Below, piece by piece: positions 6,901 through 57,597 of a stretch of DNA of 64,000 nt. The stretch lies in assembly GCF_035083965.1 (NCBI RefSeq), contig NC_089726.1, positions 6,267,501 to 6,331,500 of the forward strand. Direction: 5' to 3'. The notes under the pieces are model-generated. The model saw only the letters and a program-made list of their open reading frames with translations. It was not told the DNA's origin and made no database searches. The DNA is from Branchiostoma lanceolatum. Taxonomy: Eukaryota; Chordata; Leptocardii; Amphioxiformes; Branchiostomatidae. Position 1 is the stretch's first letter. The number at the start of each line of letters is the position of its first letter. A program made the translations under genes and the position numbers.

Positions 6901-7472
6901 GACCACACCGTCGAACAGTATTCTAGTTTACTTCGGACTAGGGACACATAGAGAGCTTTTTTGACAAGCAATGGGGCATGGAAGCCCAAAGACCGTTTGA
7001 TGAAACCCAATGTTGAATTGGCTTTGGAGATGATGTTTTGAACATGAAATTTCCAGGATAACTGACCAGTTGCCGAAACTCCTAGGTCGTTGTATTCAGA
7101 GACTACCTCTAAAAAAGTGTCATTCATTTTGTATTGAAACTGAATTAGATTATTTCCCCTACCTATTGCGGTCCATGCTTAAAAGAAGAAAACGACCGAA
7201 AATGTCTTAGACACAGCTCAAGAGACAAAGGGTTTGACTGTATATCATTTGTTATTTACACTACAGTATCTAGAAATATCATGGTGAAAGCCCACTCACT
7301 CTTCAAACAGCTCGGATCCCCTGGTGTCGTACATGTACCAATGCGGCACACGTTTCCGCTCGGACGTGAGGCTGGACACCACGTACCTCAAGTCGCCAGA
7401 CACGTCACTGTACCGCCGGGCCAGCCTCACCACGTGACGTGTGAGTGACGTCATTCCAATTCGCACCGCCAT
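917..7472 (-). CDS. EgtD-like SAM-dependent methyltransferase, paralogue 1 (6 exons, 342 aa)
   Basis: Predicted exons, in coding order: 7472-7300, 5597-5389, 4772-4566, 3354-3236, 2348-2216, 1104-917 (stop TGA). All junctions are GT..AG, phases agree and the total is 1,029 nt. The protein matches the histidine-specific methyltransferase family (EgtD/Methyltransf_33), about the usual 320-350 aa. The N-terminal YDTRGSELF motif is at about residues 48-56, the SAM-binding GSGASSKT loop at 97-104, PVD at 122-124, and GNSIGN near 173-178. The C-terminal NYSCKF is at 302-307. EgtD trimethylates histidine in ergothioneine synthesis. Here the Glu that grips the histidine amino group in EgtD appears to be Asn302, so the substrate is uncertain. 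The start is the ATG at 7472; the frame is open further upstream but only with GTG. The introns hold MITEs, a Penelope-derived foldback and a LINE. A tandem paralogue lies at 23.1-27.3 kb. The family is well supported; the exact start is less sure. Confidence 0.85.
1349..1592. mobile_element. MITE family B copy 1 (CCCTCTCACTGGACCCGC termini)
   Basis: The terminal inverted repeats read roughly GCCCCCCTCTCAGTGGACCC at the left and the reverse complement at the right. The interior carries CGAATTTCATCGATAAGG and GTCATACTTGTACGTTTTG, shared with the copy at 55,946. It lies in the last intron of EgtD-like paralogue 1. Confidence 0.75.
1605..1872 (+). mobile_element. Penelope-like element 3'-end fragment
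   Basis: It contains GGTGACGTCACCGAAACATC and, further on, ACCAACCTGATGAAACTATT. The same phrases end the Penelope-like fragments at 28.7 and 51 kb. An inverted pair of about 40 bp (around 1609-1650 and 1716-1758, core CAGCGACACCTAG) lies inside it. There is no open reading frame. Confidence 0.55.
1937..2201. mobile_element. MITE family A copy 2 plus a solo terminus
   Basis: The complete element is 2030-2201, from ATCTCCAAGCAGATCT to AGATCTGCTTGGAGAT, with long internal complementarity around GGATAC and GGCCAAAACAG. A lone terminus lies at 1937-1957. The sequence between them starts with TGTGTGTTACGCCGAAG-like text that recurs near 21,884. The element ends 14 bp inside intron 5 of EgtD-like paralogue 1, next to the donor at 2215. 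Confidence 0.7.
2386..2452. repeat. (GAAT/GAGT)n simple repeat
   Basis: An imperfect run of ATGAATGA and GAGTGAGT units in intron 4 of EgtD-like paralogue 1, near the exon 5 acceptor. Confidence 0.8.
2532..2897. mobile_element. Foldback element made of two opposed Penelope-like 3' ends, with 13-bp TSD
   Basis: A 366-bp insertion. Its left half reads AGATTCTTTTTACACAACC onward and its right half is the reverse complement; both carry the TCAGACACCTTCTTCAGAGC phrase of the Penelope-like copy at 28.7 kb. The exact 13-mer AACAACTTAAACA flanks it at 2519-2531 and 2898-2910, which I read as a target-site duplication. It lies in intron 4 of EgtD-like paralogue 1. Confidence 0.8.
4110..4300. repeat. 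Dispersed repeat, second copy at about 31,195-31,385
   Basis: Both stretches share the ordered phrases GTACGA, TTTTC(A/T)AGCAGGCTGTG, ACGACTATCCCAAG, and TACGAC(A/G)AATGTG followed by GGCCCT. Each lies in an intron (paralogue 1 intron 3 and polycystin-like intron 2). I see no ORF or clear termini. Confidence 0.5.
4326..4529. mobile_element. MITE family A copy 3 with internal 62-bp duplication
   Basis: The left terminus and first 62 bp are repeated in tandem (CTCCAAGCAGATCTATAGG starts at 4327 and again at 4389). The complementary right half appears once and ends in GGTTGGAGG. It lies in intron 3 of EgtD-like paralogue 1. Confidence 0.7.
5151..5364. mobile_element. MITE family A copy 4
   Basis: A 214-bp palindromic element from ATCTCCAAGCAGATCTATCG to the reverse complement. 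The arms share CCAACTGGGAAAAGCAG and the AT-rich loop includes TTTTTAAAAAAATGG. It ends 25 bp from the end of exon 2 of EgtD-like paralogue 1. Confidence 0.8.
5625..5840. mobile_element. MITE family B copy 2
   Basis: Termini GCCCTCTCACTGGACC and GGTCCAGTGAGAGGGGGGC. The interior is in the opposite orientation to copies 1 and 4 (GATGAAATTCGTTGAG). It begins 28 bp upstream of exon 2 of EgtD-like paralogue 1 in intron 1. Confidence 0.75.
6169..7165 (-). mobile_element. 5'-truncated non-LTR retrotransposon (LINE), reverse transcriptase C-terminal part
   Basis: The minus strand encodes about 233 aa (7127-6426) typical of the region after the RT catalytic core in Jockey/CR1-type ORF2 proteins. It includes YNDLGVSATGQLSWKFHV, a conserved LVRSKLEYCSTVWSPH motif, RLESVQRRGSKFIL, and RIVRIWNALPTEIR. 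No YxDD active site or endonuclease is present, so the copy is 5'-truncated. About 230 nt of A-rich 3' UTR leads to an (AAAT)n tail at 6171-6196. It lies in intron 1 of EgtD-like paralogue 1, in the gene's own orientation. Confidence 0.85.
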
Positions 7473-7559
7473 ATTGAAAGTCTTGATGAAAGAAAACAGA
7501 GGACGAGGGTGAAGTTTGTCCGTTCGACACCTTATGGTGCCTAGCGACACATAGGGCGT

Positions 7560-8400
7560 CAGTTGCAGGGCATATTTCTACAGGGAAGGGTTGCTAGCCC
7601 TTCCTCTTTAACGTGCTTGAGGCCCCCATTTTATGTCCTTTCAGAAATTAGGGTGCAGCGCCCAATGCTTAGGTCCCAATTGGAAAATGGGGATTTTTTT
7701 TCACTTTCGGGCGTGAACCCTACGTGGTGGCCCCCTGGGACACCCTGCGACTGCCGGGCTATTTGTTAGGCCCGACCGGGACCCCGAATCATTTTAACTC
7801 GGACTTAAAATCACCGCAGGACCCGGTAACAAATAGACACCGTTAGCTAATCATGCCCCCGCACATACCCAGCAGCCCACTGGGATAGATTTGTGGCTTC
7901 GGGGCCCGGCCGGGACTACACCCCCTAAGGGCACCGGCGCAATTGTGACCTAAGCATGACCCAAGATAGAACCGGGACCTCCCAGTTAACTAACTGGAGC
8001 CAGGAGGTCAATTGTGAAGCTGCTACCAGTTTAGGATAGACATCCCTGGAGGATTAGGATACCATAGTCTAGTTAATGAATGAATTAAGACCTTTATTGA
8101 ACATTTTTGTCCAACTATGTTAAATACAAGTTTAGAAACATAAACATGTTGGTACCAGTATCGTAGTCTATCGTATTGGTTCGGCTGCTTCTCGCTTCTT
8201 CGTAATGGTGATATTGTAGGATTGTATGGTTTGGCTAGCCTGTGTTTACACAAGCTCTCGGCCGGAGGTTAATGACCCCCACCCCAAGACATACACAAGT
8301 TCTCGGCCGGAGGTTGATGACCTCCACCCAAAAAACTAGGGGGATGGCGGTTACAGGACCGGCCGGCCGCTATTAGCGCGATTTGTCAGGCCAGAGTTTG
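7560..8400. other. Upstream flank of paralogue 1: unassigned GC-rich repeat-like sequence
   Basis: No gene seen. Two near-identical stretches near 8243 and 8290, each with CTCTCGGCCGGAGGTT or TTCTCGGCCGGAGGTT, form a roughly 45-bp tandem pair. From 8078 the text AAGACCTTTATTGAACATTTT resembles the 3' end of a minus-strand LINE, but no coding remnant supports it. Confidence 0.4.
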
Positions 8401-8908
8401 GCTAAAGTCGGTTTATCAAAACGCATGAAGAGTATGACATTTTTTAGTGCTACTCATAAGTCTTGGTCATACCTGACACTCGAAATTGTTGTGTGGTGCT
8501 CGGATGAAAATGTATACATTCACAAACTAGTAGCAAATTATCCGGTCATAAATAATGAAAGCATGTTAAAGTAGGTCACTCCTTCACAATTGATAAGGAA
8601 CAATGAAGCCATTGATTGGCAAACGATACCCAGAAATGCGTTATTGTTACGTGTAGAACATCCTGACTGTGGCCGATATGAATTCAGTTCCAAAGAGCCT
8701 GTATAATGTCCTTGCAAAGAGCTACTTCTCCTTCACTGACTTGTATAAGGCCTGTTATCCCATACTGTGCTTTGGGGCGGAGCTTAGTGTTTTGAGGGGG
8801 AGGTGTCTGCCCAACGTGTTTTTTTTCCTGCAGCCCGCCATTTCGGGGCGCTGGGATGAGAAAGAATCAGCGTAATTCTCGCTTATTGAAGATCATTGGA
8901 ATACATTT
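8401..8908. other. Stretch without recognised features
   Basis: Only short ORFs (up to about 68 codons) with no recognisable domain. I see no repeat termini, RNA gene or splice-consistent exon. Confidence 0.4.
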
Positions 8909-9143
8909 CCATTCCACTAGACGGTGGTCGCGCTGCGCTCTCGCTGCGACCTAAGTAGAATTTGTCTAATCGATTAATCCTTGATTTCATAATTGGAATA
9001 TCATGCAAAATATAAAAGCATGGCTGAAAAGACAACAAAAACGCAAAGCGTAAAAAGATTCGTGTTTTTATCTATGAAATTCGTTGAGCGCAGCTGTGTT
9101 AAATTTTTTGGTCACAGAGAGCGCCGTCCTAGTGGAATGGGGG
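8909..9143. mobile_element. MITE family B copy 3 (diverged)
   Basis: Termini ATTCCACTAGACGG and CCGTCCTAGTGGAAT are the most altered of the four copies. The interior retains AAAAGATTCGTG and ATGAAATTCGTTGAGCGC in the same order as the copy at 5625. Confidence 0.65.
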
Positions 9144-9787
9144 TATAACTCGAACATCTAAATGTATATTTTCCCTGACTTCTAACATAGTACAAGCTTA
9201 TATCATTACCATACGTGGATTTGCTCTCTTCATTGTATAGCCTGGCAGACGTTCATACAATATGAGCTATGGACTAGAACACATTTCGGTGTCATGAGAT
9301 ACAAGTAATTATCTGGCACCACGTTCGAGATCATCGGCTGTAGTAATTCACAGAAATTCGGGAGACGAATGCTTAATGTAGACGCCTATCTACAGCTAAC
9401 ACCCGCTGAGAAAGGTGACAGATGTTCACAGTAACGTCAGCAGGTGATTCTATATTACTGGTTGTGTATACACTTTTTCATCCCGTGGTCCTTCATTATT
9501 TACGTCACATGGAGTGACAAAGTGAAACTTTTCATTCCTTGGGTTGGAGTTTTACTATATTTCGCGGCTCTGAAACACCCTGTATATCTCACATTCACCT
9601 GAACCAAATAGTCGTGACTTTGACAATATGAAAAAAAATTGCATAAGGCCACAGCAAGTAATTTTTATGGATGACATCAGCGCGCTCATTAATTTTCGCC
9701 TGATTTCGAAATAAAAAACAAGAAATTTCATTGCCCTCCGACGGTGATCAACATGCCAAAAATTGGCAGGTATGTCGTAAACGTTGA

Positions 9788-10200
9788 CAGTGTTTCATTG
9801 CATATGAATACCCAGCGTAGTTCCTGCCCACGATGGTATGGCAAGCTGTTTTCTGCGTTTGTCCTAGCAAGGACATTATATAAATAATTGGGGGGGGGGG
9901 GGTCTAGTTAATTGAGCTGTATACACATCTTCAAGAACAGTTTCATGTTGACAGTCTAAGGTGTTTCATCGCATATGAATACCCAGTGTAGTTCCTGCCA
10001 ATGATGGTATAATAACAATCTGTTTTCTGCATTTGTCCTAGCAAGGGCATTATATAAATAATGGGAGGGGGGGTCTAGTTAATTGAGCTGTATTCACAAG
10101 GTGTTTCATCGCATATGAATTCCCAGTGTAGTTGCTTCGGATGGTACAAGAAGCTCTTTTCTGCATTTGTTGTAGTTAGTCTATTGAGATGTATACACAT
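9788..10200. repeat. Three-copy tandem repeat (about 140-170 bp)
   Basis: Each copy begins GTGTTTCAT(T/C)GCATATGAAT (near 9789, 9960, 10,100) and continues through GATGGTA, CTGTTTTCTGC, TTGTCCTAGCAAGG, ATTATATAAATAAT, a G-run and TCTAGTTAATTGAGCTGTAT. The third copy is shortened. Noncoding. Confidence 0.75.
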
Positions 10201-10603
10201 CTACAAGGACATGTTTACATTAAATCAATGAGGTTTTATATTATTATGTATATATCATGTATGAAACCTCATTGGTTGAATACAGGAACAAAAGACCTGT
10301 TGGTCATGATATCATATTTCGTTGCCTCAACTCTTGTTTAACAAGACGTTTGATCTCACAATTCGAAAATATAGTAATCTTGTTATTTTTGGCTCGTCTT
10401 GTTTTTTTTTCGCCCTATCTCATTAATTTTGGAGTCTGCGGAGGATGTCATCCATAAAATTTACTTGCTGTGGCCTAACCTAGAAATACTGCTACGGTGC
10501 CCAAAATCAACATGTATCATCTCGCGCATTCTAGTAGACGATATGCCAAAATACTTTCAAATGCATCAAATGGATCGTGATTTACAGCTATAGCTGCTAC
10601 CAT

Positions 10604-10700
10604 ATCATAATGATAACTTTATTGCAAGTTCATGCCCGAAGGCTAATTGCAGACAAACAAGTTTACATGGGAATCGACATAGTTATCTAGTCTACTGTGA
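10604..10700 (-). mobile_element. Probable LINE 3'-end remnant
   Basis: It reads TAATGATAACTTTATTGCAAG then TTCATGCCCGAAGGCTAATT. On the minus strand this resembles a LINE 3' UTR ending in an A-rich tail. No ORF remnant is attached. The rest of 10,201-11,065 holds nothing recognised. Confidence 0.35.
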
Positions 10701-11065
10701 AGGTTCTATGTTAACTAAAGTTGACTATGGTTGGGTTTGACTTCTTTTTTGAAGGCAGTGGACAATGAAGAGACCCAAGTTTTGTATCGTAAGTGGGTTG
10801 GTTGGGTTGGTTTTCTTTTTGTAGTGGATGTGCGCTAATTCGAATCTTACACACAGCTGACCGTTGGTCAAAAACATAATCAAGCGCAATACCCTTCACG
10901 GAGGTAACAAAGACGGCCTGCATCTGAGTACCTAACGGAAGGATACAGCTACCTTGCTTGAAACAGTTCAAAAATTAAACCACTGAAACTTATTCGTTCA
11001 AACTACGAGTTTTCAGGCAGTCTATTGTCACGCCGCTATAGATATGCGCCATGTGGTCAAACAGC

Positions 11066-11291
11066 GGAATTTTCCATAGCCTTGAGCGAAAACCATGGCA
11101 ACGTATATATGTCAAACAATGTATGTCACTGTAACACCCTGACATACAGAGGTTTTACACAAAATAACCTATTTTGATGTACAGACAAATGGGAAATCTT
11201 TATTTATCATTATCACCACGTACATGAGCAGGGGAAAAAGTATCATGAGTTTGCTTACATTTTTTTGAATTGAACAAATAATGAATATACA
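11066..11291. repeat. Left 226-bp direct repeat flanking the foldback element
   Basis: The bases from GGAATTTTCCATAGCC to ATGAATATACA match 19,977-20,202 without a difference that I could find. The next bases differ on both sides. The copy ends where the element's inverted terminus starts. Confidence 0.9.
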
Positions 11292-11391
11292 AGCTCTAGC
11301 TATTTAGCACATTTATTTAGTTCAGAAAAGTATTTCAGTCAATTCACGTGTTAACCGCATTTACCTGTGTTAACAATTGGCAGCGCATCCC

Positions 11392-12200
11392 AACTCATTA
11401 AATTACTAGAAAGAATATTAAAACCCTTACTAGTGATTTAATGAGCTAGCATGCCTCTAACTCATTAAATCACTATAACAGTATCTTTAAAACCCTTACT
11501 AGTGATTTAATGAGCTAGCATGCCTCTAACTCATTAAATCACTATAACAGAATCTTTAAAACCCTTACTAGTGATTTAATGAGCTAGCATGCCTCTAACT
11601 CATTAAATCACTATAACAGAATCTTTAAATCCCTTACTAGTGATTTAATGAGCTAGCATGCCTCTAACTCATTAAATCACTATAACAGAATCTTTAAATC
11701 CCTTACTAGTGATTTAATGAGCTAGCATGCCTCTAACTCATTAAATCACTATAACAGAATCTTTAAATCCCTTACTAGTGATTTAATGAGCTAGCATGCC
11801 TCTAACTCATTAAATCACTATAGCAGAATCTTTAAATCCCTTACTAGTGATTTAATGAGCTAGCATGCCTCTAACTCATTAAATCACTATAACAGAATCT
11901 TTAAATCCCTTACTAGTGATTTAATGAGCTAGCATGCCTCTAACTCATTAAATCACTATAACAGAATCTTTAAATCCCTTACTAGTGATTTAATGAGCTA
12001 GCATGCCTCTAACTCATTAAATCACTATAACGGAATCTTTAAAACACTTACTAGTGATTTAATGAGCTAGCATGCCTCTAACTCATTAAATCACTATAAC
12101 AGAATCTTTAAAACACTTACTAGTGATTTAATGAGCTAGCATGCCTCTAACTCATTAAATCACTATAACAGAATCTTTACATCCACTTATTTTTCAATTC
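11392..12200. repeat. Palindromic tandem array L1, 69-bp period, 12 units
   Basis: Units start with CTCATTAAATCACTA and end with TAGTGATTTAATGAG, so each can fold into a hairpin. A GCTAGCATGCCTCTAA linker joins them. The start recurs every 69 bp from 11,461 to 12,151. Units are nearly identical, which suggests recent expansion or homogenisation. Confidence 0.9.
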
Positions 12201-12600
12201 TCTTATAGTGATTTAATGTGCTAAACCCTGTACGGCTGGGCCAGCTGAAAGTATTAAACGGTCGTCGTCACTACGGACCAGATTCAATTACACCTCACAG
12301 CCCTGAGCTGCCGGCCATATGGGCCTCATGTGTTACCATTGGTACGCACGAGAAGAGGCCCAAACGTGTCCATCACGTAAGTCTGGGAATGTACTAACGA
12401 TATGGTTATCTATTACCAAGGAGCCATATCGCTGCTAGTCAAAGCATAATCTGAACAAGTTACTCGTTTCTCTCTTTTTCCACTGGTAAGTAACAGAAAG
12501 AGGACGTTTTGAGGCGGTTTACTTAAGGATATATAAATGTCCTTGGTTTACCTGGGTTTCTGAACATTTTTTTTCTTTCATGTCTCCCGACATCTGCTTC
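12189..12600 (+). repeat. Foldback module copy 1
   Basis: It begins in a diverged half-palindrome (TTATAGTGATTTAATGTGC) and continues through GGCTGGGCCAGCTGAAAG, CTGCCGGCCATATGGGCC and ACGAGAAGAGGCCCAAACG. It ends in a remnant MITE terminus (ACATCTGCTTCGAGAG) where copies 2 and 3 hold a whole MITE. It has an extra AAGGATATATAAATGTCC insertion. Confidence 0.75.
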
Positions 12601-12790
12601 GAGAGGCTCATAAATTCACTAGTAAGAAATCATTTAAATCTTTTACTAGTGATTTAATGAGCTAGCAAGCTTCTAACTCATAAAATCACTAGTAAGAGAT
12701 TATTTGAATCCCCTACTAGTGATTTAATGAGCTAGCATGCTTCTGACTCATAAAATCACTAGTAAGAGATTTTTCAATTCTCTTATAGTG
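12600..12790. repeat. Palindromic array L2 (2-3 units)
   Basis: The same palindrome as L1 but with ACTAGTAAGAGATTATTTGAATC centres and GCTAGCATGCTTCT linkers, that is, the sub-variant shared with arrays L3, L4 and the right arm. Confidence 0.75.
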
Positions 12791-13188
12791 ATTTAATGTG
12801 CTAAACCCTGTGCGGCTGGGCCAGCTGAAAGTATTAAACGGTCGTCGTCACTACGGACCAGATTCAATTACACCTCACAGCCCTGAGCTGCCGGCCATAT
12901 GGGCCTCATGTGTGACCATTGGTACGCACGAGAAGAGGCCCAAACGTGTCCATCACGTAAGTCTGGGAATGTACTAACGATACGGTTATCTATTACCAAG
13001 GAGCCATATCGCTGCTAGTCAAAGTATAATCTGAACAAGTGCAACTACACTCTTTACATTACCGTTTCTCTCTTTTCCCACTGGTAAGTAACAGAAAGAG
13101 GACGTTTTGAGGCGGTTTACCTGGGTTTTTGAACTTCTTTTCTTTCTTATTATGTCTCCCGATCGAGAGCGCCTCGCCCCCGTTACCT
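12779..13188 (+). repeat. Foldback module copy 2
   Basis: Near-identical to copy 1 through the CATCACGTAAGTCTGGG and ACTGGTAAGTAACAG stretches. It ends TTATTATGTCTCCCGATCG just before the family A MITE. A short open frame over this part is repeated at the next copy, 972 bp on, but I see no sign that it is a protein. Confidence 0.75.
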
Positions 13189-13352
13189 ACTCTCCAAGCA
13201 GAGGTTGGTGGGAAGATTGTGACCCCTTTATCTTATGCCCCGTCTCTTCAATTCTTGTCCGCTCTCCCCACCAGCGGGTAGCGGACAAAAAACGGGGTCG
13301 GGCATTCGATAAAATGGTCATAATTTCCCCCACCAATATCTGCTTGGAGAGT
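13189..13352. mobile_element. MITE family A copy 5, inside the foldback arm
   Basis: Termini ACTCTCCAAGCAGAGGTTGG and the reverse complement. The hairpin arms carry GGGGTCGGGCAT and ATCTTATGCCCCG-type sequence. The equivalent copies at 14,167 and (inverted) 18,151 show that it was amplified with the module. Confidence 0.8.
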
Positions 13353-13365
13353 ACTGGCTAAATAA

Positions 13366-13755
13366 ACATGCCTCTAACTTATTAAATCACTAGTAAGAAA
13401 TTATTTAAAAGTGATTTAATGAGCTAGCATGCTTCTAACTCATAAAATCACTAGTTAGAGTTTATTTGAATCTCTTCCTAGTGATTTAATGAGCTAGCAT
13501 GCTTCTAACTCATAAAATTAGTAGCAAAACGTTAATTGAATCCCTTACTAGTGATTTAATGAGCTAGCATGCTTCTAACTCATAAAATCACTAGTAAGAG
13601 ATTATTTGAATCCCCTACTAGTGATTTAATGAGCTAGCGTGCTTTTAACTCATAAAATCACTAGTAAGAGATTATTTGAATCTCCTACTAGTGATTTAAT
13701 GAGCTAGCATGCTTTTAACTAATAAAATCACTAGTAAGAGTTTTTTCAATTCTCT
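13366..13755. repeat. Palindromic array L3 (about 6 units)
   Basis: CTCATAAAATCACTAGTAAG / CTACTAGTGATTTAATGAGC units with a roughly 70-bp period. Substitutions are slightly more frequent than in L1. Confidence 0.8.
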
Positions 13756-14166
13756 TATAGTGATTTAATGTGCTACACCCTGTACGGCTGGGCCAGCTGA
13801 AAGTATTACACGGTCGTCGTCGCAACGGACCAGATTCAATTACACCTCACAGCCCTGAGCTGCCGGCCATATGGGCCTCATGTGTTACCATTGGTACGCA
13901 CGAGAAGAGGCCCAAACGTGTCCATCACGTAAGTCTGGGAATGTACTAACGATACGGTTATCTATTACCAAGGAGCCATATCGCTGCTAGTCAAAGTATA
14001 ATCTGAACAAGTGCAACTACACTCTTTACATTACCGTTTCTCTCTTTTCCCACTGGTAAGTAACAGAAAGAGGACGTTTTGAGGCGCTTTACCTGCCATT
14101 GGGTTTTTGAACTTCTTTTCTTTCTTATCATGTCTCCCGATCGAGAGCGCCTCGCCCCCGTTACCT
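13743..14166 (+). repeat. Foldback module copy 3
   Basis: Matches copy 2 over its length apart from scattered changes and a 6-bp insertion (CCTGCCATTGGG against CCTGGG). With the MITE and array it forms a higher-order unit of about 0.97 kb. Confidence 0.75.
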
Positions 14167-14330
14167 ACTCTCCAAGCAGAGGTTGGTGGGAAGATTGTGA
14201 CCCCTTTATCTTATGCCCCGTCTCTTCAATTCTTGTCCGCTCTCCCCACCAGCAGGTAGCGGACAAAAAAAGGGGTCGGGCATATGATAAAATGGTCACA
14301 ATTTCCCCCACCAATATCTGCTTGGAGAGT
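14167..14330. mobile_element. MITE family A copy 6
   Basis: Near-identical to the copy at 13,189 and in the same place relative to the module, so duplicated with it. Confidence 0.8.
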
Positions 14331-14342
14331 ACTGGCTAAATA

Positions 14343-14515
14343 AACATGCCTCTAACTTATTAAATCACTAGTAAGAAATTATTTAAATTCCCTACAAGTA
14401 ATTTAATGAGCTAGCATGCTTCTAACTCATAAAATCACTAGTAAGAGATTATTTGAATCCCCTACTAGTGATTTAATGAGCTAGTATGCTTCTAACTCAT
14501 AAAATCACTAGTAGT
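14343..14515. repeat. Palindromic array L4 (2-3 units)
   Basis: The last left-arm array. It breaks off inside a palindrome after ATCACTAGTAG, where the middle begins (TCCGAGCGAGCTCG). Confidence 0.75.
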
Positions 14516-15494
14516 CCGAGCGAGCTCGACGGGGAGAGAGGGAGAGAGAAATAACAATCGGTTTACCCTGTGCCTTGTGCCTACATGCCTCAGTACTTAT
14601 GACCCATAAGATATCTAATAGTACCGTCATGATAAGTCTAATAAGGATTTTTCCCCCGTGAATTCGACAAGTCGGGAAATCACATCTATATAAATCTAAG
14701 CCTGACATGTTAGCTTTATGTACGGCTGAATTGTCGGGTGGCATATTCAAGACATCGGGAAAAGCCTTTCTAAAAGAGCCTCCTTTGCTAAAATGAGACT
14801 AGTCTTGTTTGTTTGTTTGTTTGTTTTTTTCTGAATACTTCTTTCATTACGGGTTGCGGGCTTTGCAGTGGTAAGGGATTGAGTTTGAATTCCTGACATG
14901 ATACAGAGACAGTACTATTTCAGCATGTGGTTTGTGTTTTAAGTTGATCGCCCTCTACTTGCACCGTGAAAATCAGTGATGAATTGATGGTCACCAAAGT
15001 GGCATGTCAGTTCCGCCATTCCCACAATATCCTGACCGATAACATATGTGGAACATCATGAATTAGTCTTGACATGTCTAACTCTAAGTCATCGCGCGAA
15101 ACGCAGATTGAAAGAGAACACATGATTAGTTAGACGTTCATGTCTGTCATAGTCCATAAAATGAAAGCGACTTTCACCTTGAAGTGAGTCATGATCATGT
15201 GGCGACCGGGCGGCTCCACTTCCGTGCCCGGTACTAATCAGAGGTACAGACCATAATATTGATGATTTAAATATTTTGTTGTCCACCTATTCAAGAATAC
15301 TTAACTCCCGAGGCGAAGCTGCAGTCTCTTGTCTAAAACACTGAAACAGACACGCATACATAAGCTTGATTGAATTTAACGCTAAATCTAATCGAATTAG
15401 GTGGAAAAACATGGTGCGGGCTTGTTCCCGCCGCGGCACGACACATGATCACCACAGCGTTACCACGCCCCAAACCGGAGCAGTCAGTCAGTGT
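14516..15494. other. Middle of the foldback element, unassigned part
   Basis: No ORF with recognisable content and no repeat termini. A (TTTG)n run lies at about 14,806-14,826. I could not find a transposase or a captured gene. Confidence 0.4.
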
Positions 15495-15632
15495 ACTCTC
15501 CAAGCAGAGGTTGAATGGGCAGATCGTCACCGTTTTATCATATGCCGTTTTAATTTTGATTTAAGCGAAAAAATTAAAACGGCATGTGATAAAACGGTGA
15601 CGATCTGCCCATTCAACCTCTGCTTGCAGAGT
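15495..15632. mobile_element. MITE family A copy 7
   Basis: An almost perfect palindrome of 138 bp. The ACTCTCCAAGCAGAGG terminus and CATATGCCGTTTTAATTTTG are mirrored on the right. The loop is only a few bases (ATTTAAGCG). Confidence 0.85.
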
Positions 15633-15932
15633 ACGTCAGTGGAGGCCGGTTTCGCTGTCCTTTTAGTGGCTCATTGATGACAAAAAATGTCCTGATCTGA
15701 ACGAAAAGAAAGTGTTGGACTCGAGGTCCCATGTTTTGAACGCAACTTGCAACGTAGGAAACCCATGACAAATAATAACTGTCTTTAAGCAAAAACGTCA
15801 CGTATTTTGAAAAAAACGTCACGTATTTTGTCTCCGTATTTTTGAAACAGATATATTGTCATATATCATCCATCATCAGGTATAACGCAAACTCCAGCTG
15901 TCAGGGGGTTTATGTCAGTCATGTTGTTTCCT

Positions 15933-16026
15933 ACTCTCCAAGCAGAGGTTGGGAAAGATCGTGACAAAAAACGGGGCATATTGATAAAACGGTCACGATT
16001 TTTCCCACCAACCTCTGCTTGGAGAT
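15933..16026. mobile_element. MITE family A copy 8 (short)
   Basis: 94 bp, ACTCTCCAAGCAGAGGTTGG to the mirrored terminus. The arms carry TCGTGACAAAAAACGGGGC and the matching ACGGTCACGATTTTT. Confidence 0.8.
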
Positions 16027-16136
16027 CTAGACTGTTTCCGACGTAGAAAGCCCTGATCTTACCCAAAAGAATCTACTTTGGCTTTGATCGTATTATTTTA
16101 TCCAGAAACAAACTACGCGACCTGTGTCATATGATC

Positions 16137-16551
16137 TTGTAAGGAAGGCGGGGATGTTAGCGTTCCTTTTGTAATGGATCTTGCTGGTGGGGTGACGAAG
16201 AAGATGACGAGACGACGGAAGACGAGACACAACATAGGTGTAAGAATGTGTGACGCAAAGAATGTGTGACGCAATGGTAGCCGTTGCCGCAATGGAACGT
16301 AAAATGCTAATTGTTGTTTATTTGTTTCTATTTCTTTCGTACGTTCGCCGAACGTGAACGTTTTAACGAGCGCGTTCGCAGAACGCCCTCACTTGAATAA
16401 AGACAGTTGATTTCAAGGATTGAACGTGTCAAGACGTCTTTTATTTAGCTGCGTGTTGTGTCTCGTCTTCCGTCGTCTCGTCATCTTCTTCGTCACCCCA
16501 CCAGCAAGATCCATTACAGAAGGAACGCTAACATCCCCGCCTTCCTTACAA
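16137..16551. mobile_element. Long-hairpin element, 98-bp inverted arms
   Basis: The left arm (16,137-16,234) begins TTGTAAGGAAGGCGGGGATG. The right arm (16,454-16,551) is its near-perfect reverse complement. The 219-bp interior contains the GTTCGCCGAACGTGAACG palindrome and GAATAAAGACAG. No ORF spans it. Confidence 0.75.
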
Positions 16552-17236
16552 TCCCATATGCTGTTTTTATAAGTAATTTGCCGTACACAAATACTCGTCA
16601 GGGTACAGTCCACAATATGGGTGAAAATAGGCTTAAATTTGCCGGTGTTCTCAATATGATATGACACACAGGGGATGTCGTCATACTAGTGCGGGCGACA
16701 CAGATGAAGGACATCATCCGATCGCAAAAGTGAGCAAAACACATGTCTGCCGTGTCTCCTCCACAAGCGACATGATTAACGGTTCGATTTAACGCAACAT
16801 GAGATGAGATGGCAAACCATGATAAGAAGTCAGTACACCATTGTCTAGGAACAGATGTTGGAACGTAATCCTGTTAACAAGAAAGCCAACATTTTTCAAC
16901 TAGTCTAGAGCAGTAAGGAAAGAATATCAATGTCATTTGGGTATGCTGAAGTCTTGGTTGATTAGAACTTAACTCCGAATATATCAGCTGTAAACTTTAT
17001 TTCAACCACATTGAACGTAATCCACTGGAAAATTGTCCCGTGTGTAATGGATTTAACGTTGACTGAAGTGATAGTGTATGTAAATCTCAAGTTAACAGTT
17101 ACTATTCATCTATTTGTTTTACATGCAGTAGTGTATTTTCGTTTTCTTGTCGAGTGAGGTCATAACTGGTCAACGATATGAGCCGATCGCAGAAGTACGT
17201 AGCGGGGGTCGGGGCGAGGGCGGCCACGTTCGTGGA
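16552..17236. other. Middle of the foldback element, right part
   Basis: Mostly unassigned. An ATG at 17,178 opens 29 codons (MSRSQKYVAGVG...) that end at a possible splice donor (CTCAG then GTAAAC) where the inverted module begins. No second exon could be joined, so I do not call a gene. Confidence 0.3.
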
Positions 17237-17605
17237 CATGAAAGAAAAGAAGTTCAAAAACTCAGGTAAACCGCCTCAAAACGTCCTCTTTCTGTTACTT
17301 ACCAGTGGGAAAAGAGAGAAACGGTAATGTAAAGAGTGCAGTTGCACTTGTTCAAATTATACTTTGACTAATAGCGATATGGCTCCTTGGTAATAGATAA
17401 CCGTATCGGTAGTACATTCCCAGACTTACGTGATGGACACGTTTGGGCCTCTTCTCGTGCGTACCGATGGTAACACATAAGGCCCATATGGCCGGCAGCT
17501 CAGGCTAGGGCTGTGAGGTGTAATTGAATCTGGTCCGTAGTGACGACGACCGTTTAATACTTTCAGCTGGCCCAGCCGCACAGGGTTTAGCACATTAAAT
17601 CACTA
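17237..17605 (-). repeat. Foldback module copy 4 (inverted)
   Basis: Reverse complement of the left-arm module, from GAAGTTCAAAAACTCAGG through CAAACGTGTCC-type sequence to GGCCCAGCCGCACAGGG. No MITE follows its inner end, unlike copies 2, 3 and 5. Confidence 0.75.
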
Positions 17606-18145
17606 TAAGAGAATCGAAAAATCTCTTACTAGTGATTTTATGAGTTAGAAGCATGCTAGCTCATTAAATCACTAGTAGGGGATTCAAATAATCTCTTACT
17701 AGTGATTTTATGAGTTAGAAGCATGCTAGCTCATTAAATCACTAGTAGGGGATTCAAATAATCTCTTACTACTGATTTTATGAGTTAGAAGCATGCTAGC
17801 TCATTAAATCACTAGTAGGAGATTCAAATAATCTCTTACTAGTGATTTTATGAGTTAAAAGCACGCTAGCTCATTGAATCACTAGTAGGGGATTCAAATA
17901 ATCTCTTACTAGTGATTTTATGAGTTAGAAGCATGCTAGCTCATTAAATCACTAGTAAGGGATTCAATTAACGTTTTGCTACTGATTTTATGAGTTAGAA
18001 GCATGCTAGCTCATTAAATCACTAGGAAGAGATTCAAATAAACTCTAACTAGTGATTTTATGAGTTAGAAGCATGCTAGCTCATTAAATCACTTTTAAAT
18101 AATTTCTTACTAGTGATTTAATAAGTTAGAGGCATGTTTATTTAG
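17600..18145. repeat. Palindromic array R1 (about 8 units)
   Basis: Period about 70 bp: GCTCATTAAATCACTAGTAG / CTTACTAGTGATTTTATGAG units joined by TTAGAAGCATGCTA, which is the reverse complement of the left linker. Confidence 0.85.
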
Positions 18146-18150
18146 CCAGT

Positions 18151-18314
18151 ACTCTCCAAGCAGATATTGGTGGGGGAAATTGTGACCATTTTATCGAATG
18201 CCCGACCCCGTTTTTTGTCCGCTACCCGCTGGTGGGGAGAGCGGACAAGAATTGAAGAGACGGGGCATAAGATAAAGGGGTCACAATCTTCCCACCAACC
18301 TCTGCTTGGAGAGT
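18151..18314. mobile_element. MITE family A copy 9 (inverted relative to copies 5 and 6)
   Basis: 164 bp, reverse complement of the 13,189 copy with few differences, between array R1 and module copy 5. Confidence 0.8.
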
Positions 18315-18727
18315 AGGTAACGGGGGCGAGGCGCTCTCGATCGGGAGACATAATAAGAAAGAAAAGAAGTTCAAAAACCCAGGTAAACCGCCTCAAAACG
18401 TCCTCTTTCTGTTACTTACCAGTGGGAAAAGCGAGAAACGGTAATGTAAAGAGTGTAGTTGCACTTGTTCAGATTATACTTTGACTAGCAGCGATATGGC
18501 TCCTTGGTAATAGATAACCGTATCGTTAGTACATTCCCAGACTTACGTGATGGACACGTTTGGGCCTCTTCTCGTGCGTACCAATGGTAACACATGAGGC
18601 CCATATGGCCGGCAGCTCAGGGCTGTGTGGTGTAATTGAATCTGGTCCGTAGTGACGACGACCGTTTAATACTTTCAGCTGGCCCAGCCGCACAGGGTTT
18701 AGCACATTAAATCACTATAAGAGAATT
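18315..18727 (-). repeat. Foldback module copy 5 (inverted)
   Basis: Reverse complement of module copy 2, including the CGATCGGGAGACATAATAAG end that abuts the MITE. Confidence 0.75.
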
Positions 18728-19885
18728 GAAAAATCTCTTACTAGTGATTTTATGAGTTAGAAGCATGCTAGCTCATTAAATCACTAGTAGGGGATTCAAA
18801 TAATCTCTTACTAGTGATTTTATGAGTTAGAAGCTTGCTAGCTCATTAAATCACTAGTAAAAGATTTAAATGATTTCGTACTAGTGAATTTATGAGTTAG
18901 AGGCATGCTAGCTCATTAAATCACTAGTAAGGGATTTAAATGATTCCTTACTAGTGATTCTATGAGTTAGAGGCATGCTAGCTCATTAAATCACTAGTAA
19001 GGGATTTAAATTATTCCTTACTAGTGATTTTATGAGTTAGAGGCATGCTAGCTCATTAAATCACTAGTAAGGGATTTAAATGATTCCTTACTAGTGATTC
19101 TATGAGTTAGAGGCATGCTAGCTCATTAAATCACTAGTAAGGGATTTAAATTATTCCTTACTAGTGATTTTATGAGTTAGAAGCATGCTAGCTCATTAAA
19201 TCACTAGTAAGGGAATTAAATAATTCCTTACTAGTGACTTTATGAGTTAGAGGCATGCTAGCTCATTAAATCACTAGTAAGAGGTTTAATTATGCCTTTA
19301 CTAGTGATTTTATGAGTTAGAGGCATGCTAGCTCATTAAATCACTAAAAGGGATTTAAATAACTCCTTACTAGTGATTTTATGAGTTAGAGGCATGGTAG
19401 CTCATTTAATCACTAGTAAGAGATTTAAATGATTCCTTACTAGTGATTTAATGAGTTAGAGACATGCTAGCTCATTAAATCACTAGTAAGTGATATAAAT
19501 AACCTCTTACTAGTGATTTAATGAGTTAGAGGCAAGCTAGCTCATTTAATCACTAGTAAGAGATTTAAATGATTCCTTACTAGTGATTTAATGAGTTAGA
19601 GACATGCTAGCTCATTAAATCACTAGTAAGTGATATAAATAACCTCTTACTAGTGATTTAATGAGTTAGAGGCATGCTAGCTCATTTAATCACTAGAAAG
19701 AGATTTAAATGATTCCTTACTAGTGATTTTATGAGTTAGAGACATGCTAGCTCATTAAATCACTAGTAGGTGATTTTAATAACCTCTTACTAGTGATTTA
19801 ATGAGTTAGAGGCATGCTAACTCATTAAATCACTAGTAAGAGATTTGAAAATTTCTTACTAGTGATTACTGAGAGTTACTCTTAC
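18708..19885. repeat. Palindromic array R2, 70-bp period, about 17 units
   Basis: GCTCATTAAATCACTAGTAAG and mirrored halves repeat every 70 bp. Within the array a two-unit block (GACATGCTAG.. / GGCAAGCTAG..) is itself repeated near 19,400-19,800, so some amplification was in 140-bp steps. Confidence 0.85.
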
Positions 19886-19976
19886 AAAAAATCACTAGCA
19901 CAACTTTTTTTCTTACTTCGTGTTTTGGCATGTTTTACTAATACTAACTAAATAAATGTGTTAAATAATCAAGTCT

Positions 19977-20202
19977 GGAATTTTCCATAGCCTTGAGCGA
20001 AAACCATGGCAACGTATATATGTCAAACAATGTATGTCACTGTAACACCCTGACATACAGAGGTTTTACACAAAATAACCTATTTTGATGTACAGACAAA
20101 TGGGAAATCTTTATTTATCATTATCACCACGTACATGAGCAGGGGAAAAAGTATCATGAGTTTGCTTACATTTTTTTGAATTGAACAAATAATGAATATA
20201 CA
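19977..20202. repeat. Right 226-bp direct repeat flanking the foldback element
   Basis: Identical, as far as I can read, to 11,066-11,291 and in the same orientation. It contains ATCTTTATTTATCATTATC and runs directly into the LINE-like sequence to its right. Confidence 0.9.
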
Positions 20203-20577
20203 CATCACGCACCGAACATTTGATATCAAGAGTATAATACTTATTGAGGCGAGGAAACCACACACGTGGTTTAGTGACAGTCAACATAGTAAGTAAACAG
20301 TTCCCTATTATGACAGTTCCTTGTTGTGCAGGCTAATAGCCCTGTGTAGAATCGACTGTTTCAGCCGTTTCGTCCTTTCGTTTAGAGAGGGCAGAACCGA
20401 TACATCACGTCTGCCCCCGCACGAAATGGTACGTTCAATACTGTCCGCCTGCACCTCATGATCACTACAACCAAGTAGTAATTTTTTTACCAACGGTAAT
20501 TTTGGAGATATATCGCTTTTGTGGTGGCTTACTCCGTACGCGTACGATATCCACACGACTATCCCGCGGATTTCCAA
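20203..20577 (-). mobile_element. LINE ORF2 C-terminal remnant
   Basis: The minus strand (20,577-20,308) encodes about 89 aa ending LNERTKRLKQSILHRAISLH, resembling the tail TKRFKQSILEHY of the LINE at 6.4 kb and RPKRLQDSFLHKAIRLYN at 54 kb. The sequence from here back through the 226-bp repeat could be its 3' UTR. Confidence 0.5.
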
Positions 20578-21640
20578 TACCCTAGCTTATGGCACACCGA
20601 GTTAGACAAAGGCTTATGTCCATGTCCCCTCCCGCACGTGCTTAAGAAACGTTTGTCTTAGACCTCGTCATTGAAACTCTCAGTTTTCATAGCACCACAA
20701 GCTAATTTTCCTGAATATCATTATATTCGAGGGTTTTCGTTTACGATTAGAAAGAATCACGGTCTTCATTTTTTCCGCTGTTGCCAGGTAGACTAGTATA
20801 AACTTATGATTAGATACAGTGCGCGAACGAGACTCGTTCATAATACCGGTAGCGCACAAACCTCGAAACGAGCTATTGTATGAAAATTACAGTGGATTAG
20901 AATGCCAGGTACGGTGATATTAGATACTAACAACTATGTAGACAAATACCTTTAGGAAAGCGGTTGCAGAGGGATGTCCTGAAGAATCCGGCCAGGTAGT
21001 GTCTCCCTGACGACTGATTGTTCGCCAACTGTGACAGCCTGTATGGAGATCTGTAAAGACTTGCGTGAAACTAGAACAGCGGGACACGCATGCGCCTCAA
21101 AACTGGAACAGTAGGACACGCATGGGCCTCACATGGCGGAATTTTCCATCCTGCGTTGAAGCTCATGATTTATTACCAAGTGCTAAGACGTTAAGTGCTT
21201 CTTTATGTAAAAGCGATCTTTCCTGCATCTTTTCTGAACTTGTTAACTCCGATGGTTTACCATTTTCTAAACACAAAGTCTCGGATTTTCATCCTGTTAA
21301 AGCCGTGTGTTTTTGTTTTGGCTATAAAGGTGAATCAGGTCAAAACCATTGAAGCGCAGATGATGGCCTAGTGATCTAGAAGCAGCCAAACAACCACCTT
21401 TGGACACCTTTCCCCTCCCCGTTCAACCGGTATTATCATATAGCCAGATGACGTCCAGTAATCAGAAGTGCCCATTTCTTATCATTTATGACGCCGTAGC
21501 GTCATAGAATTACCACAAACGGGGAATGATAAATATCAAGGACGAATTATTACAATAAATGACCCGTTCGCCTGTTCAAATATGTAGAAATCCCTATAAA
21601 AATACTGTGTTCTTCTACCGTCGAGGTTATTGACCCCGCA
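20578..21640. other. Stretch without a recognised gene
   Basis: An ORF of 95 codons at 21,065-21,352 has no recognisable domain. At 21,068-21,130 a phrase of about 38 bp (GGGACACGCATGCGCCTCA / AGGACACGCATGGGCCTCA) is repeated. Nothing else seen. Confidence 0.4.
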
Positions 21641-21682
21641 TGGTTATAGGGTTCTATGGTTCTAAGGGGTTGCCTTCTCCTT

Positions 21683-21699
21683 CTTCCCTTTGTGTGCGT

Positions 21700-21735
<36 letters not shown>

Positions 21736-21777
21736 GTGTGTGCGTGTGTGTGTGTGTGTGTATGTGTGTGTGTGTTT
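21683..21777. repeat. (TG)n microsatellite
   Basis: About 95 bp of TG/CG-interrupted dinucleotide repeat. Confidence 0.95.
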
Positions 21778-22304
21778 GCATTTACAGTATTCGCTTTAGG
21801 TGTGACAGGTTGTTCAGGGTAACAGGGTGATAAAACCAGCTGCTGTCGCGCCGAGTAATTAGCGCCGCGGGCCTGCGAGGCTTGTGTGTTACGCCGAAGA
21901 GTGGTCTTACCATTTATACCGATACAGATATCCCTATAATTATCACGTTATGTGCTAGTAGACGATGCCTTCGTTGTGACCAATGCTTACGATGTATGCC
22001 TTCATGTCTTCGAGGCTTTACTCATTATTGTAGTTAGCACTAATTTTGTAGCTTGTTTCTCTTGATTGTCACCATTAGAAAACATAGTTACAGACTGAAT
22101 GGTCTATATGGAACCTATACATGTATATTTCTGCTATTACTCTTCGTAAAAAAAGTGAAAGTGATTTGCTAATACGTCACGTTTTGGCACTGATATTACA
22201 GTATGTGATTTTCTTACTTTCCATTTTTGTGACTATCTGTTCCAGTCCTGTCAGTGATGAAATTGCAAAATGGCCTGATCACCATGTATTCATACTGAGC
22301 TGGA

Positions 22305-22600
22305 CATCCAGGAACATTACAACAGTTAATACATTATAGCTGGATAAGGTTTCTGGCAAAGTCAAACGTTTCAGCCAGCATCCAGGAACATTACAGCAGT
22401 TACTATATTATAGCTGGATAAGGTTTCTGGCAAAGTCAAACGTTTCAGCCAGCATCCAGGAACATTACAGCAGTTACTATATTATAGCTGGATAAGGTCT
22501 CTGGCAAAGTCAAACGTCTCAGCCAGCATCCAGGAACATTACAGCAGTTACTATATTATAGCTGGATAAGGTCTCTGGCAAAGTCAAACGTCTCAGCCTA
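22305..22600. repeat. Four-copy tandem repeat, 74-bp period
   Basis: CATCCAGGAACATTACA starts at 22,305, 22,379, 22,453 and 22,527. The copies differ by a few substitutions (TTTCTGG against TCTCTGG). It has no ORF across the array. Confidence 0.95.
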
Positions 22601-23093
22601 CACCCGTTACCTTTTTATCGGTGACTCTGGACAGGAATGCCTAAGGATTCATACAAATTTTACGGAATTCATATGCATACGATCCACTACTGAAAAACAT
22701 ACGAATTTTACGGAATCATTACGAGCATTACAGAGTACATGCGATCCTTACTACTAGTCATTTATTGGACCAGCGAATGGGTCACCTGACAATCCTAACG
22801 ATACCATCGCAGTAGCACCAATTTTCAGTCTTGCCCTGCTAGTTGGTCTAAATCACACCGATATGTCGCCTACGAAGCACGCATACATTAGTGCAGGTTG
22901 AGTTTTTTTGGTGTCAAGCAGGATCGGAGAAGTTCTTTAAGGCCATGATATCGTAGAAAGAAATACAAAAGTCACAAGTCCGCCAGCTTGAATTTGCCGA
23001 TCATTTCATGGCATTTCAGTTTTCATTTTTTCAGCGGATGCTGTCCGAAACGTCTATTAGAGAACTTATTGATTTGTTTGACTTATCTTTCTT

Positions 23094-26000
23094 TTAATGA
23101 GCTATTTCGTTATTCGGTGCCAGACACACCACACAGAATTTGGCCTCTTGGTTGGTCCAGAAACCTGTCACTGCAAAGTTGCTCTTTTCCGCCAGACGGC
23201 GCACCTGATGCTCGCTGAATTTGCAGCTGTAGTTCGGGCCTGCAGACAGGTAGAGCTTCTCGCCAGCCGCGAAGTTAACGGTGACGCCAAGTTTTCCTGG
23301 AGAAAAAAATGTGTTCATTGGAATTACGTAAGACGTAATGAGGGCTGGAGACTGAATATAGATCTTTTATAAATTTAAAGTTATCTGTAAGTGTTTCGTC
23401 TACGTTGAAGATTCCAGGAAAAAATCGTTTGGATGTAACGTTATAGAACTGGTTATCACACATTCTAACTGATATCAGGGAAAGCGATGTTTCGTTGTGC
23501 TTCCATAGTTCTCATGGGATATTCTTTACATGTATAAGGTAAGATATTCGTGCACGGATGTTGTCATCTATAACTATAACTATAACACTTTCCGGGTTTC
23601 AAGAGCCGCCAGAAAGAAAGCAGTCGTATCTTTAGAATAATTTTAATCTAAAGTAAACACAAAAATACTCACTTAGGTGCACACGTTGCAGTTCCGAACT
23701 TTTCAGGTATTTTCGGATGTAACTGGGCGTGTCCCCTTCAATGGGGTTCTGCACAAAGTCGACGATGTCTTCAAACTTCGTCTTGTCCATGTCTCCATCA
23801 AAGTCCTTAGATTTTAAGTGGAAAGGAAAAATTGGAAATGAGAGAAATCTATATTCTGAAGATGTGTGGTTCTGGCTTAGCCTGGAATCTAAACATATTA
23901 TAGCTCGGAGACTCGGGAGCTATAATAGGTTTGGTTCGGATTCCAGGCTAGTTCTGGCTTGCTTAGGACACCTTTTTGCATCGCTTGCTATGTTTATCTA
24001 GCGGTGTGCACGCCAGTACTACTAGAGGGGCATAGAAACGCTACAAAAATGCGAACAACAGAAGCCAGACCACACCTCTCCTTCGAGTTTGAAAAACACA
24101 CAACACATCTGCTTGGAGTTTAAGAATCATACCACGCCACATATCTGATTGGAGCTTAAAAACACACCACGCCATACATCTGCTTCGGGCACATTACACC
24201 ACATATCTGCTTGGATGTTAAGAAACACTCCACACAACACATCTGCTTGAAGCTTAAGAAATACACCACACATCTGCTTAGAGCTTAAGACACGCGCCAA
24301 ACGTCTGCTCCGAGCCTATAAAAAACACCACTCCACACATCTGCTGATTAAAAAACCATATGAAAGAGATTTGCTGGACAACCAACAATAGAATAATGCG
24401 ATCAAATTTGCTAACAAATTTAAGATATATATGACTGGAGGGGCCACCCAAATGTTTGAAGATTAAATAGATAAATAAATAAATAAATAAATGAATAAAT
24501 AAATAGATAAACGCTACCTTGTTCAGGCGGTCGATGAAGTTGTTCAAGAACGGAGACAGCCCTCGCGAGTTCAGAGCTCGGTATCCCTTCAGCAGGGCCT
24601 TCCGCTCAGCGTTCATGTCCACTCCCAACACGAGCCTGTCGTTGGCTAAAAATGTCAACCACAAAAAACAGTCAACATCTACTGCAAAAATGGCATACGA
24701 ACAAGGAACCTTGTGGTCCTGTCTTCGGTGTCTTGAAAGACCCCTACTTTGCCCCGAATGGGCTATTTGGGGGTTAATAAATGTAGATGTAGATGTAGAT
24801 GAAAATGAACACCAGAACAAGCAGTAGCAGTAGCACGATTCAGAGGATCTCGTTCCTCAATTAGGTTGAAATCGAGTTAAGATCGTCCAACACTTTTAGA
24901 ATAATTTTAGTGTATATGGGCGGACCCCTCTTCGTTTCAAATTTCATTACAGTATGGTCATGTGCAGAGTATTCAATTCCTATGCTCTTTCTCCTAAGTG
25001 CTGAGCGGAAAGAGCCATATGTACCATTTTTTCGAGTGTTTTTTTTTATAACGGGGAATCAATCCACCGACCTCCCGAATACATCTACCCCCTATAAGAA
25101 CTATCTCCCCCCTACAGGGCATTACACCGTCCTGTCAAACAGGTTTAAATTTGCTTGTCATCCCCCCCCCCCGGACTTGGGGAGCTATCTGATCACCGAC
25201 TGAAAGCGTATGTATAACGTATTTCTAAAGCTGTCTTTGATGGGTCGCTGAGTCATGACTACTTACCGTTGAGATACGTCCTGATCTCCTTCATCATGTC
25301 GACCTGCTCATCGATGGGCACGTTGCCGATGCTGTTGCCGAGGAACAGGAGCAGCTTGGGCTCCGGGCGATCGGCGACATGACGTAATCCGTCCAAGAAC
25401 AGCCCGCCGAAGGGTTCCACTTTCAGGGCGCTGTAATCTCGCTCCAGTTCTCGCGAGACTTCCTCGATAAAATCTACGGAAAGGACAGACGATCAGAATG
25501 CTATTCAACTTGACTGAAGCAAACAGCTATTATGAATTCGAAGAATCGGAAAATCTACCCTATTGATGAACCTGGACGAGGGTGGTGGGATACAGACTAG
25601 GTCACATTTTGGACCACATGTCTCATCAAAGCAACATCTGGCGGCGAGAAGAAGCACCTGTGTCGGTAGCAAATGTACTTTAGAACTAGACAATCTACCC
25701 TATTGATGGACCTGGACGCGGGGGGAAACAGACTCGGTCACATTTCGGACCAGATTCTCTCCAAAGCGTCATTTGGCGGCGAGAAGTCGCACCTGTAGCA
25801 ACTTCAGTTTAAAACCAAACAACCTATATGTACTCTATTCATGAACCTGGACGAGGGGGGGGGGGGGGGGGGGATACACACTCGGTCACGTTTCGAACCA
25901 CATTATTGACACCCTGGCGCATGGTGGCCAGAAGCGGCATTAGTTATTACAGTCTATTGGAAGGTAACACATACAGGTTACTGAAACGTCGGCAGGTAAA

Positions 26001-45400: not shown

Positions 45401-45850
45401 GTGGCCAGCATCTTCATGATGGCGTACACTCAAGCGGGAAACCTCGTCTTTGGTGTTAAACTCCAGGGTTATAAGAACATCCAGACCAGCCTACAGAGTC
45501 TCTGCATGATGATGTTGGGAAGTTTTGACTTTGATGAACTGTCAGGAGCTAAGAGTGTTTTAGGTCCTCTGATGTTCTTTTCGTACCAGGCTATGATGCA
45601 GTTTATCCTGCTGAGTATGTTTATGACCATCATCATGGATGTGTACGCAGAAGAGCAACAACCTTCCACTGAGGAAGGTCTACAATTAAGTAAATTTGTG
45701 AAAGAAACCTCGATAGGGATTGTAGATAAATTAAAGGTCGCATCGAAGACCAAACGCCGAGATGCGAAGCAAAATGAAGACAATGTGATAGAACCCGACA
45801 ATGCAAGCAGGTTTTATGGTCTTATAGACGATTTTGGCAAGATGTGGTGA
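30458..45850 (+). CDS. Polycystin-1 family protein (REJ-GAIN/GPS-PLAT-channel, PKDREJ-like; 37 exons, 2,187 aa)
   Basis: Predicted exons: 30458-30485, 30821-30976, 31845-31935, 32081-32165, 32489-32638, 33248-33578, 33981-34197, 34556-34748, 35160-35361, 35522-35649, 35795-35902, 36214-36453, 36535-36660, 36799-36816, 36876-37002, 37235-37320, 37549-37668, 37870-38019, 38353-38565, 38664-38952, 39098-39228, 39617-39835, 40001-40108, 40400-40578, 40786-40851, 40963-41070, 41329-41542, 41762-42152, 42271-42458, 42589-42663, 42882-42975, 43143-43339, 43439-43607, 43773-43870, 44140-44284, 44589-44927, 45066-45850. The total is 6,564 nt and all phases agree. A signal peptide (about residues 1-24) is joined across intron 1. 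REJ region about 120-800, then GAIN; GPS with CQCDHLT, expected cleavage before Thr1081. The first helix follows, then PLAT (about 1137-1255), ten more predicted helices, the polycystin extracellular domain, and a pore-like LGSFDF (about 2077-2082). No LRR, WSC or lectin domain was seen; order and length resemble PKDREJ/sea urchin REJ proteins. Family role: surface receptor-channel. The 12/13, 14/15 and 31/32 junctions are the least sure. Confidence 0.9.
32656..32745. repeat. (GAAT)n simple repeat
   Basis: Imperfect ATGAATGA units in intron 5 of the polycystin-like gene, just upstream of a family A MITE. Confidence 0.85.
32801..32941. mobile_element. MITE family A copy 10
   Basis: 141 bp, ACTCTCCAAGCAGAGGTTG to the mirrored terminus. 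The arms carry GGGGAAAATTGTGACC and the matching GGCTACAATTTCCCC. It lies in intron 5 of the polycystin-like gene. Confidence 0.8.

Positions 45851-51824: not shown

Positions 51825-57597
<5,773 letters not shown>

Follow-up and report, generated by a model that had tools for sequence, protein, structure and literature searches.

How did a foldback transposon come to lie between two direct repeats of 226 bp that are identical throughout? The element shows the long inverted arms of tandem sub-repeats round a variable middle that mark the foldback structural class, but it lacks the short target-site duplication, about 8-10 bp in length, that also belongs to the class. The features that bear on this question are listed below in the coordinates of the window, by which we mean the whole 64-kb stretch of DNA that was analysed.

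11066-11291, plus strand: left 226-bp direct repeat, identical to 19977-20202, maximal
11066-11075, plus strand: 10-mer GGAATTTTCC, proposed target site X, at the 5′ edge of the repeat; 4/5 palindromic pairs
11282-11291, plus strand: 10-mer TGAATATACA, proposed target site Y, at the 3′ edge of the repeat, adjoining the left end of the element; 4/5 palindromic pairs
11292-19976, no strand: 8,685-bp foldback element (arrays, repeat modules, complementary arms)
11301-11320, plus strand: left terminal inverted box (pattern scan and edge comparison)
11392-12189, plus strand: left outer array, 69-bp units, 11.6 copies, 97% matches
12607-12803, plus strand: left inner array, 70-bp units, 2.8 copies
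13410-13775, plus strand: left inner array, 70-bp units, 5.2 copies
14345-14513, plus strand: left innermost array, 70-bp units, 2.4 copies
14514-17210, no strand: middle domain without Pfam-recognisable coding sequence; nested palindromes at 15493-15634 and 16128-16560
17588-18093, minus strand: right inner array, 70-bp units, 7.2 copies
18700-19867, minus strand: right outer array, 70-bp units, 16.7 copies
19948-19967, minus strand: right terminal inverted box (pattern scan and edge comparison)
19977-20202, plus strand: right 226-bp direct repeat, identical to 11066-11291, maximal

A preliminary description of this DNA had claimed that identical 226-bp direct repeats bound an 8.7-kb foldback element, and the repeats are real: direct comparison of 11066-11291 with 19977-20202 gave 0 differences in 226 positions. 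The match is maximal, in that the adjoining bases differ on either side and do not allow even a one-base extension. Chance is far too weak to account for an exact match of such length, and no third copy of the sequence is found within the 64-kb window. The further claim that exact identity implies a recent event holds only loosely, because with 0 differences in 226 bp the divergence could still be as high as about 1.3% (95% bound).

The window also holds a larger repeated organization, in which 921-7400 and 23113-27244 share five collinear block pairs in direct orientation, 70-95% identical. Judged from these blocks, this may be an older tandem duplication of genes, its copies lying on either side of the foldback element. 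The 226-bp repeat was rejected as a part of it, since the blocks are offset by 19.8-22.2 kb, not 8.9 kb.

The right flank had been described as LINE-like, and the target as a LINE 3′ UTR. This finds no support in a six-frame Pfam search of 20203-24202 at E 0.1, which detected no reverse transcriptase; the search sees proteins and is blind to a UTR, which encodes none, and a LINE 3′ UTR was set aside as an unsupported target on that footing. The single match there not judged to be noise is a Methyltransf_33 stretch (E 0.0011, below its cut-off), a Toxin_8 match, likewise below cut-off, being put down to noise. Its relative is at 26429-26788; this stretch and another near 23120-23285, both Methyltransf_33-like and both on the minus strand, accompany the tandem blocks described above. 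To the left of the element, five of the six frames of 6000-11065 contain no Pfam family. A 250-aa frame on the minus strand (6426-7178) has by eye the look of the C-terminal end of a LINE protein, and Pfam assigns it to no family. Farther to the right, open frames with a Polycystin domain and a PKD channel are present at 44564-45850, downstream of a GPS motif (below its cut-off) near 39.4-39.9 kb; NHL repeats lie in an open frame on the minus strand at 51825-52736; and a 66/132-bp minisatellite, both periods being multiples of three, falls at 57046-57416 in a minus-strand open frame of 491 aa. The Polycystin-channel and NHL-repeat frames suggest that the DNA comes from an animal.

At both ends of the foldback element is a 20-bp inverted box, TATTTARCACATTTATTTAG, at 11301-11320 (plus strand) and 19948-19967 (minus strand). 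These are the two matches in the 64-kb window at up to 3 mismatches, against a mean of 0.02 in shuffled sequence, and 0 of 100 shuffles reached two. The preliminary description had the inner edges of the repeats coincide with an inverted terminus; the terminus exists, but the box lies inside each edge without touching it, separated from the inner edge of the 226-bp repeat by exactly 9 nt, symmetrically at the two element ends. Because this spacing is equal, both junctions look like transposase joins rather than random breaks. The outer 9-mers themselves, AGCTCTAGC on the left and AGACTTGAT on the right (read inward), agree at 3 of 9 positions. In the first ~100 bp inside the ends, outside the arrays, no further exact match of at least 9 bases occurs at corresponding places besides the box.

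The location of the box also bears on whether the 226-bp repeats belong to a larger element, 9.1 kb in length, as its long terminal direct repeats. Such a structure would have an internal region bounded by identical direct repeats, as is seen here; however, the box, sitting inside the repeats at equal spacing, marks the element ends there. LTR retrotransposons have TG...CA terminal repeats flanked by a duplication of 4-6 bp, a combination not found at this locus: the 226-bp repeat runs GG...CA, and no duplication of 3-8 bp links the outer flanks (AGC against CAT next to the edges). We rejected this explanation for want of an outer duplication and consider it very unlikely.

Over 1,170 columns the inner arms (12607-13775 and 17727-18896) show 98.4% complementarity; the outer arm portions reach 84.8% in an alignment of 1,216 columns, and divergence is likewise much higher in the terminal ~100 bp than in the inner arms. 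Between the arrays are spacer modules that are themselves repeated, e.g., 13122-13409 and 14100-14387 (98%). The 69/70-bp units are palindromic and would form hairpins: in each of the three units tried, of some 46, the fold beat all 200 shuffles (z -3.5 to -8.2).

No transposase family, including those of MULEs, was recognized in the six frames of the foldback element by Pfam at E 0.1. Because of this the element looks non-autonomous, its transposase presumably being provided in trans by a partner. A non-autonomous MULE member need not encode a transposase, and MuTAnT is reportedly a Mutator-like family. Matches to ARMH5 in the arrays (best E 0.0017) and to SecG (E 0.069) were below cut-off and judged to be noise; Rfam gave 0 matches, and each of three patterns scanned against viral contigs gave 0. 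Palindromic MITE-like sequence is nested in the core and arms of the element (15493-15634, 15932-16025, 13190-13360 and 18149-18330) and carries the motif CTCTCCAAGCAGAGGTTG or, by eye, near variants of it; a similar sequence stands alone at 32801-32943. A scan of genome contigs with the embedded MITE-like motif gave two matches in prokaryote records, about the chance level for 19 bases in that collection. The middle domain further includes an inverted repeat of 107 bp (16128-16234 and 16454-16560, 96% complementary), perhaps another nested element.

The 10-mer X recurs in the right copy at 19977-19986, where it adjoins the right end of the element, just as Y adjoins the left end. Palindromy of 4/5 pairs is reached by 2.0% of 10-mers, and by both members of a pair in 0.0004 of random position pairs. 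Allowing the best palindrome length between 4 and 12, the empirical p is 0.0044 in 1,000,000 random pairs, a test that was not blind, the edges having been inspected beforehand. The signal is present at length 10 only, the edges having 3 and 0 of 4 pairs at 9 bp. Around the left copy, 7 of 280 10-mer starts reach 4/5, including 11292, which is the element's own left end. We read X and Y, from their sequence, as a candidate pair of docking sites, 226 bp from each other, for a transposase, which as a dimer would be expected to prefer symmetric targets. In register the two share 6 of 10 bases, as do 2.3% of random 10-mer pairs and 8.5% of such palindrome pairs, and a common target preference would fit this likeness. 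It could instead reflect a single decayed 10-bp duplication, although decay next to two identical 226-bp copies would be odd.

What the sequence shows is the arrangement itself, with precise edges and palindromic 10-mers; the two docking events, the exchange and the trans-acting transposase are our inference from it. The reading that we favour, at a probability of roughly 0.45, is that the ends of a non-autonomous foldback transposon, its transposase supplied in trans, were joined at two ~10-bp sites 226 bp apart, the flanking repeats being a pseudo-target-site duplication. The unoccupied ancestral DNA would be A-X-B-Y-C, with X and Y bounding one 226-bp stretch. A copy of the element (E) inserted at Y would give A-X-B-Y-E-Y-C, and a copy inserted at X would give A-X-E-X-B-Y-C. 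Crossing-over within the element between the X and Y copies would then produce exactly A-XBY-E-XBY-C with no extra bases, the left end being joined at Y (11282-11291) and the right end at X (the first 10 bp of the right repeat). The 226-bp repeat does end exactly with X and Y, with nothing outside, as exchange predicts. A possible route would be a local hop followed by unequal sister exchange; alternatively, sister-chromatid or hybrid-element (hybrid-end) transposition could yield the identical structure in one step. Either form of one-step transposition would be expected to leave an excision footprint where the right copy ends on its right side (20202/20203), and there at most a shared CA might be one. 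A chimera of two element copies would allow the outer arms and termini to diverge far more than the inner arms; the arm differences can instead stem from independent homogenisation of the arrays.

An ordinary short target duplication was sought and rejected. No clean duplication of 6-11 bp abuts the element, the direct matches being 1, 1, 2, 3, 6 and 5 at lengths 6 to 11; comparison of flanks gave at best 4/7 at the box edges and 6/10 at the repeat edges. With offsets of up to 12 nt the best match is 7/8 (at -6/-12), a value reached by 17% of 2,000 random edge pairs. We also asked whether the outer nine bases could be relics of earlier target duplications, 9 bp long, belonging to an element that stops at the box. 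Under the exchange model these 9-mers should in that case lie beyond the far edges of the repeats, where they are absent, and this variant was discarded.

The preliminary description had offered a wide staggered break and unequal exchange as alternatives. Both are possible, but we lean towards exchange or two-site joining, because a palindromic 10-mer stands at each end of the repeat, within the 8-10-bp range of Tetris and Tm1, and because comparison of the flanks at the repeat edges reveals no clean short duplication. Weighing against two-site joining, it needs two insertions of the same family within 226 bp, and no second copy of the foldback arrays or ends is found elsewhere in the 64-kb window. 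The palindrome signal, moreover, is moderate, confined to length 10 and was noticed before testing, and the lack of a clear consensus in Tm1 duplications means that palindromic targets are no family rule.

A true target-site duplication of 226 bp is possible but doubtful. The two ends would be joined to opposite strands 226 bp apart, by uncoupled end joining or at a long staggered break, and the gap filled in one event. This explanation requires the fewest events and agrees with the exact edges at both element ends. A single wide stagger leaves the palindromic edge 10-mers unexpected, however; uncoupled joins by separate transposase dimers could, we suppose, even give palindromic edges. Known Foldback elements, as far as described in the sources cited below, produce duplications of 8-10 bp. 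It is quite unlikely, but conceivable, that separate transposase assemblies handle each end and dock hundreds of bases apart, such that the foldback family would make long, variable duplications in one step; the array-rich arms would provide many binding sites, and the ends would not need to pair.

HERV-K elements use a DDE integrase. A precedent for a long duplication comes from these elements (HML-2), whose flanking direct repeats range from 13 to 450 bp in eight table rows, the preintegration allele having been determined for two of them, at 250 and 111 bp (PMC5488345). The 250-bp repeats at 7p21.2 are confirmed by the empty allele, and the range of a few to about 20 bp that the preliminary description gives for known target duplications is to this extent too narrow. 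The same paper weighs recombination giving a 'pseudo-TSD', the debate between true and pseudo-duplication thus being shared with the present locus, although HERV-K is a retroviral LTR element and the element here a foldback DNA transposon.

The exchange product could also be written by an assembler. If one haplotype carried the element at X and another at Y, a phase switch inside the 8.7-kb element would generate an identical sequence, and the element is highly repetitive and longer than short reads. Two insertions 226 bp apart would still be required, however, and the window contains no Ns. If the host is a lancelet, for which heterozygosity is reported at 3.2-4.2% (PMC12500494), 0 differences between haplotypes over 226 positions would have a computed probability of 6.4e-4 to 6.1e-5. 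We consider a phase switch unlikely. The identity of the copies, set against this heterozygosity, would point to sister chromatids or to a single event.

Direct repeats flanking transposed Arabidopsis genes have been explained by their authors through a DNA circle (PMC2869330), and here a circle comprising the element and one 226-bp copy might have integrated at the empty site, the two 226-bp sequences serving as partners in homologous recombination. This presupposes an element already adjoining the 226-bp sequence on both sides, a donor site for which there is no known example, and we regard it as most improbable.

The Tm1 Mutator/Foldback elements of root-knot nematodes are similar in having composite inverted repeats built from tandem units, asymmetric short motifs that lie outermost, beyond the inverted repeat, and members described without coding sequence (PMC3169594). 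The likeness is one of described structure, the Tm1 units being ~14 bp as against palindromic units of 69/70 bp here, and Tm1 target duplications are 8-10 bp (45/53 elements; 9 bp commonest, no clear consensus), in contrast to the 226-bp flanking repeats. Tetris, a foldback of Drosophila virilis, is again modular, with tandem repeats in its arms and, in the description given, no transposase found; it differs in its unit and its 8-10-bp duplications, the likeness again being one of described structure (PMC4079207). In Galileo (P superfamily), ectopic exchange with swapped duplications is documented, and recombination between copies leaves non-matching flanks at the element ends, but the outcome is inversions, with exchanged duplications at the breakpoints, rather than a direct duplication of 226 bp (PMC2775673). 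Alternative transposition of maize Ac/Ds makes direct duplications with breakpoints at transposon ends; it involves two nearby elements, whereas a single element is seen here (PMC3744419). Judged by titles and the beginnings of abstracts, none of the papers that literature searches listed reports a foldback element with flanking repeats of hundreds of bp, and the searches found nothing on foldback transposable elements in amphioxus or on local transposition with sister exchange. On that basis a foldback with exact 226-bp flanking repeats is unmatched, although the kinds of event involved are already known.

Finally, we note what either outcome would mean. Should the repeats be a true 226-bp duplication, they would represent uncoupled end joining by a DNA transposon; for some HERV-K insertions, long duplications of about this size have been argued (PMC5488345). 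If they are instead a pseudo-duplication, as we tentatively prefer, this one locus would record the way in which local hops and recombination let a hairpin-armed transposon duplicate short segments of host DNA.
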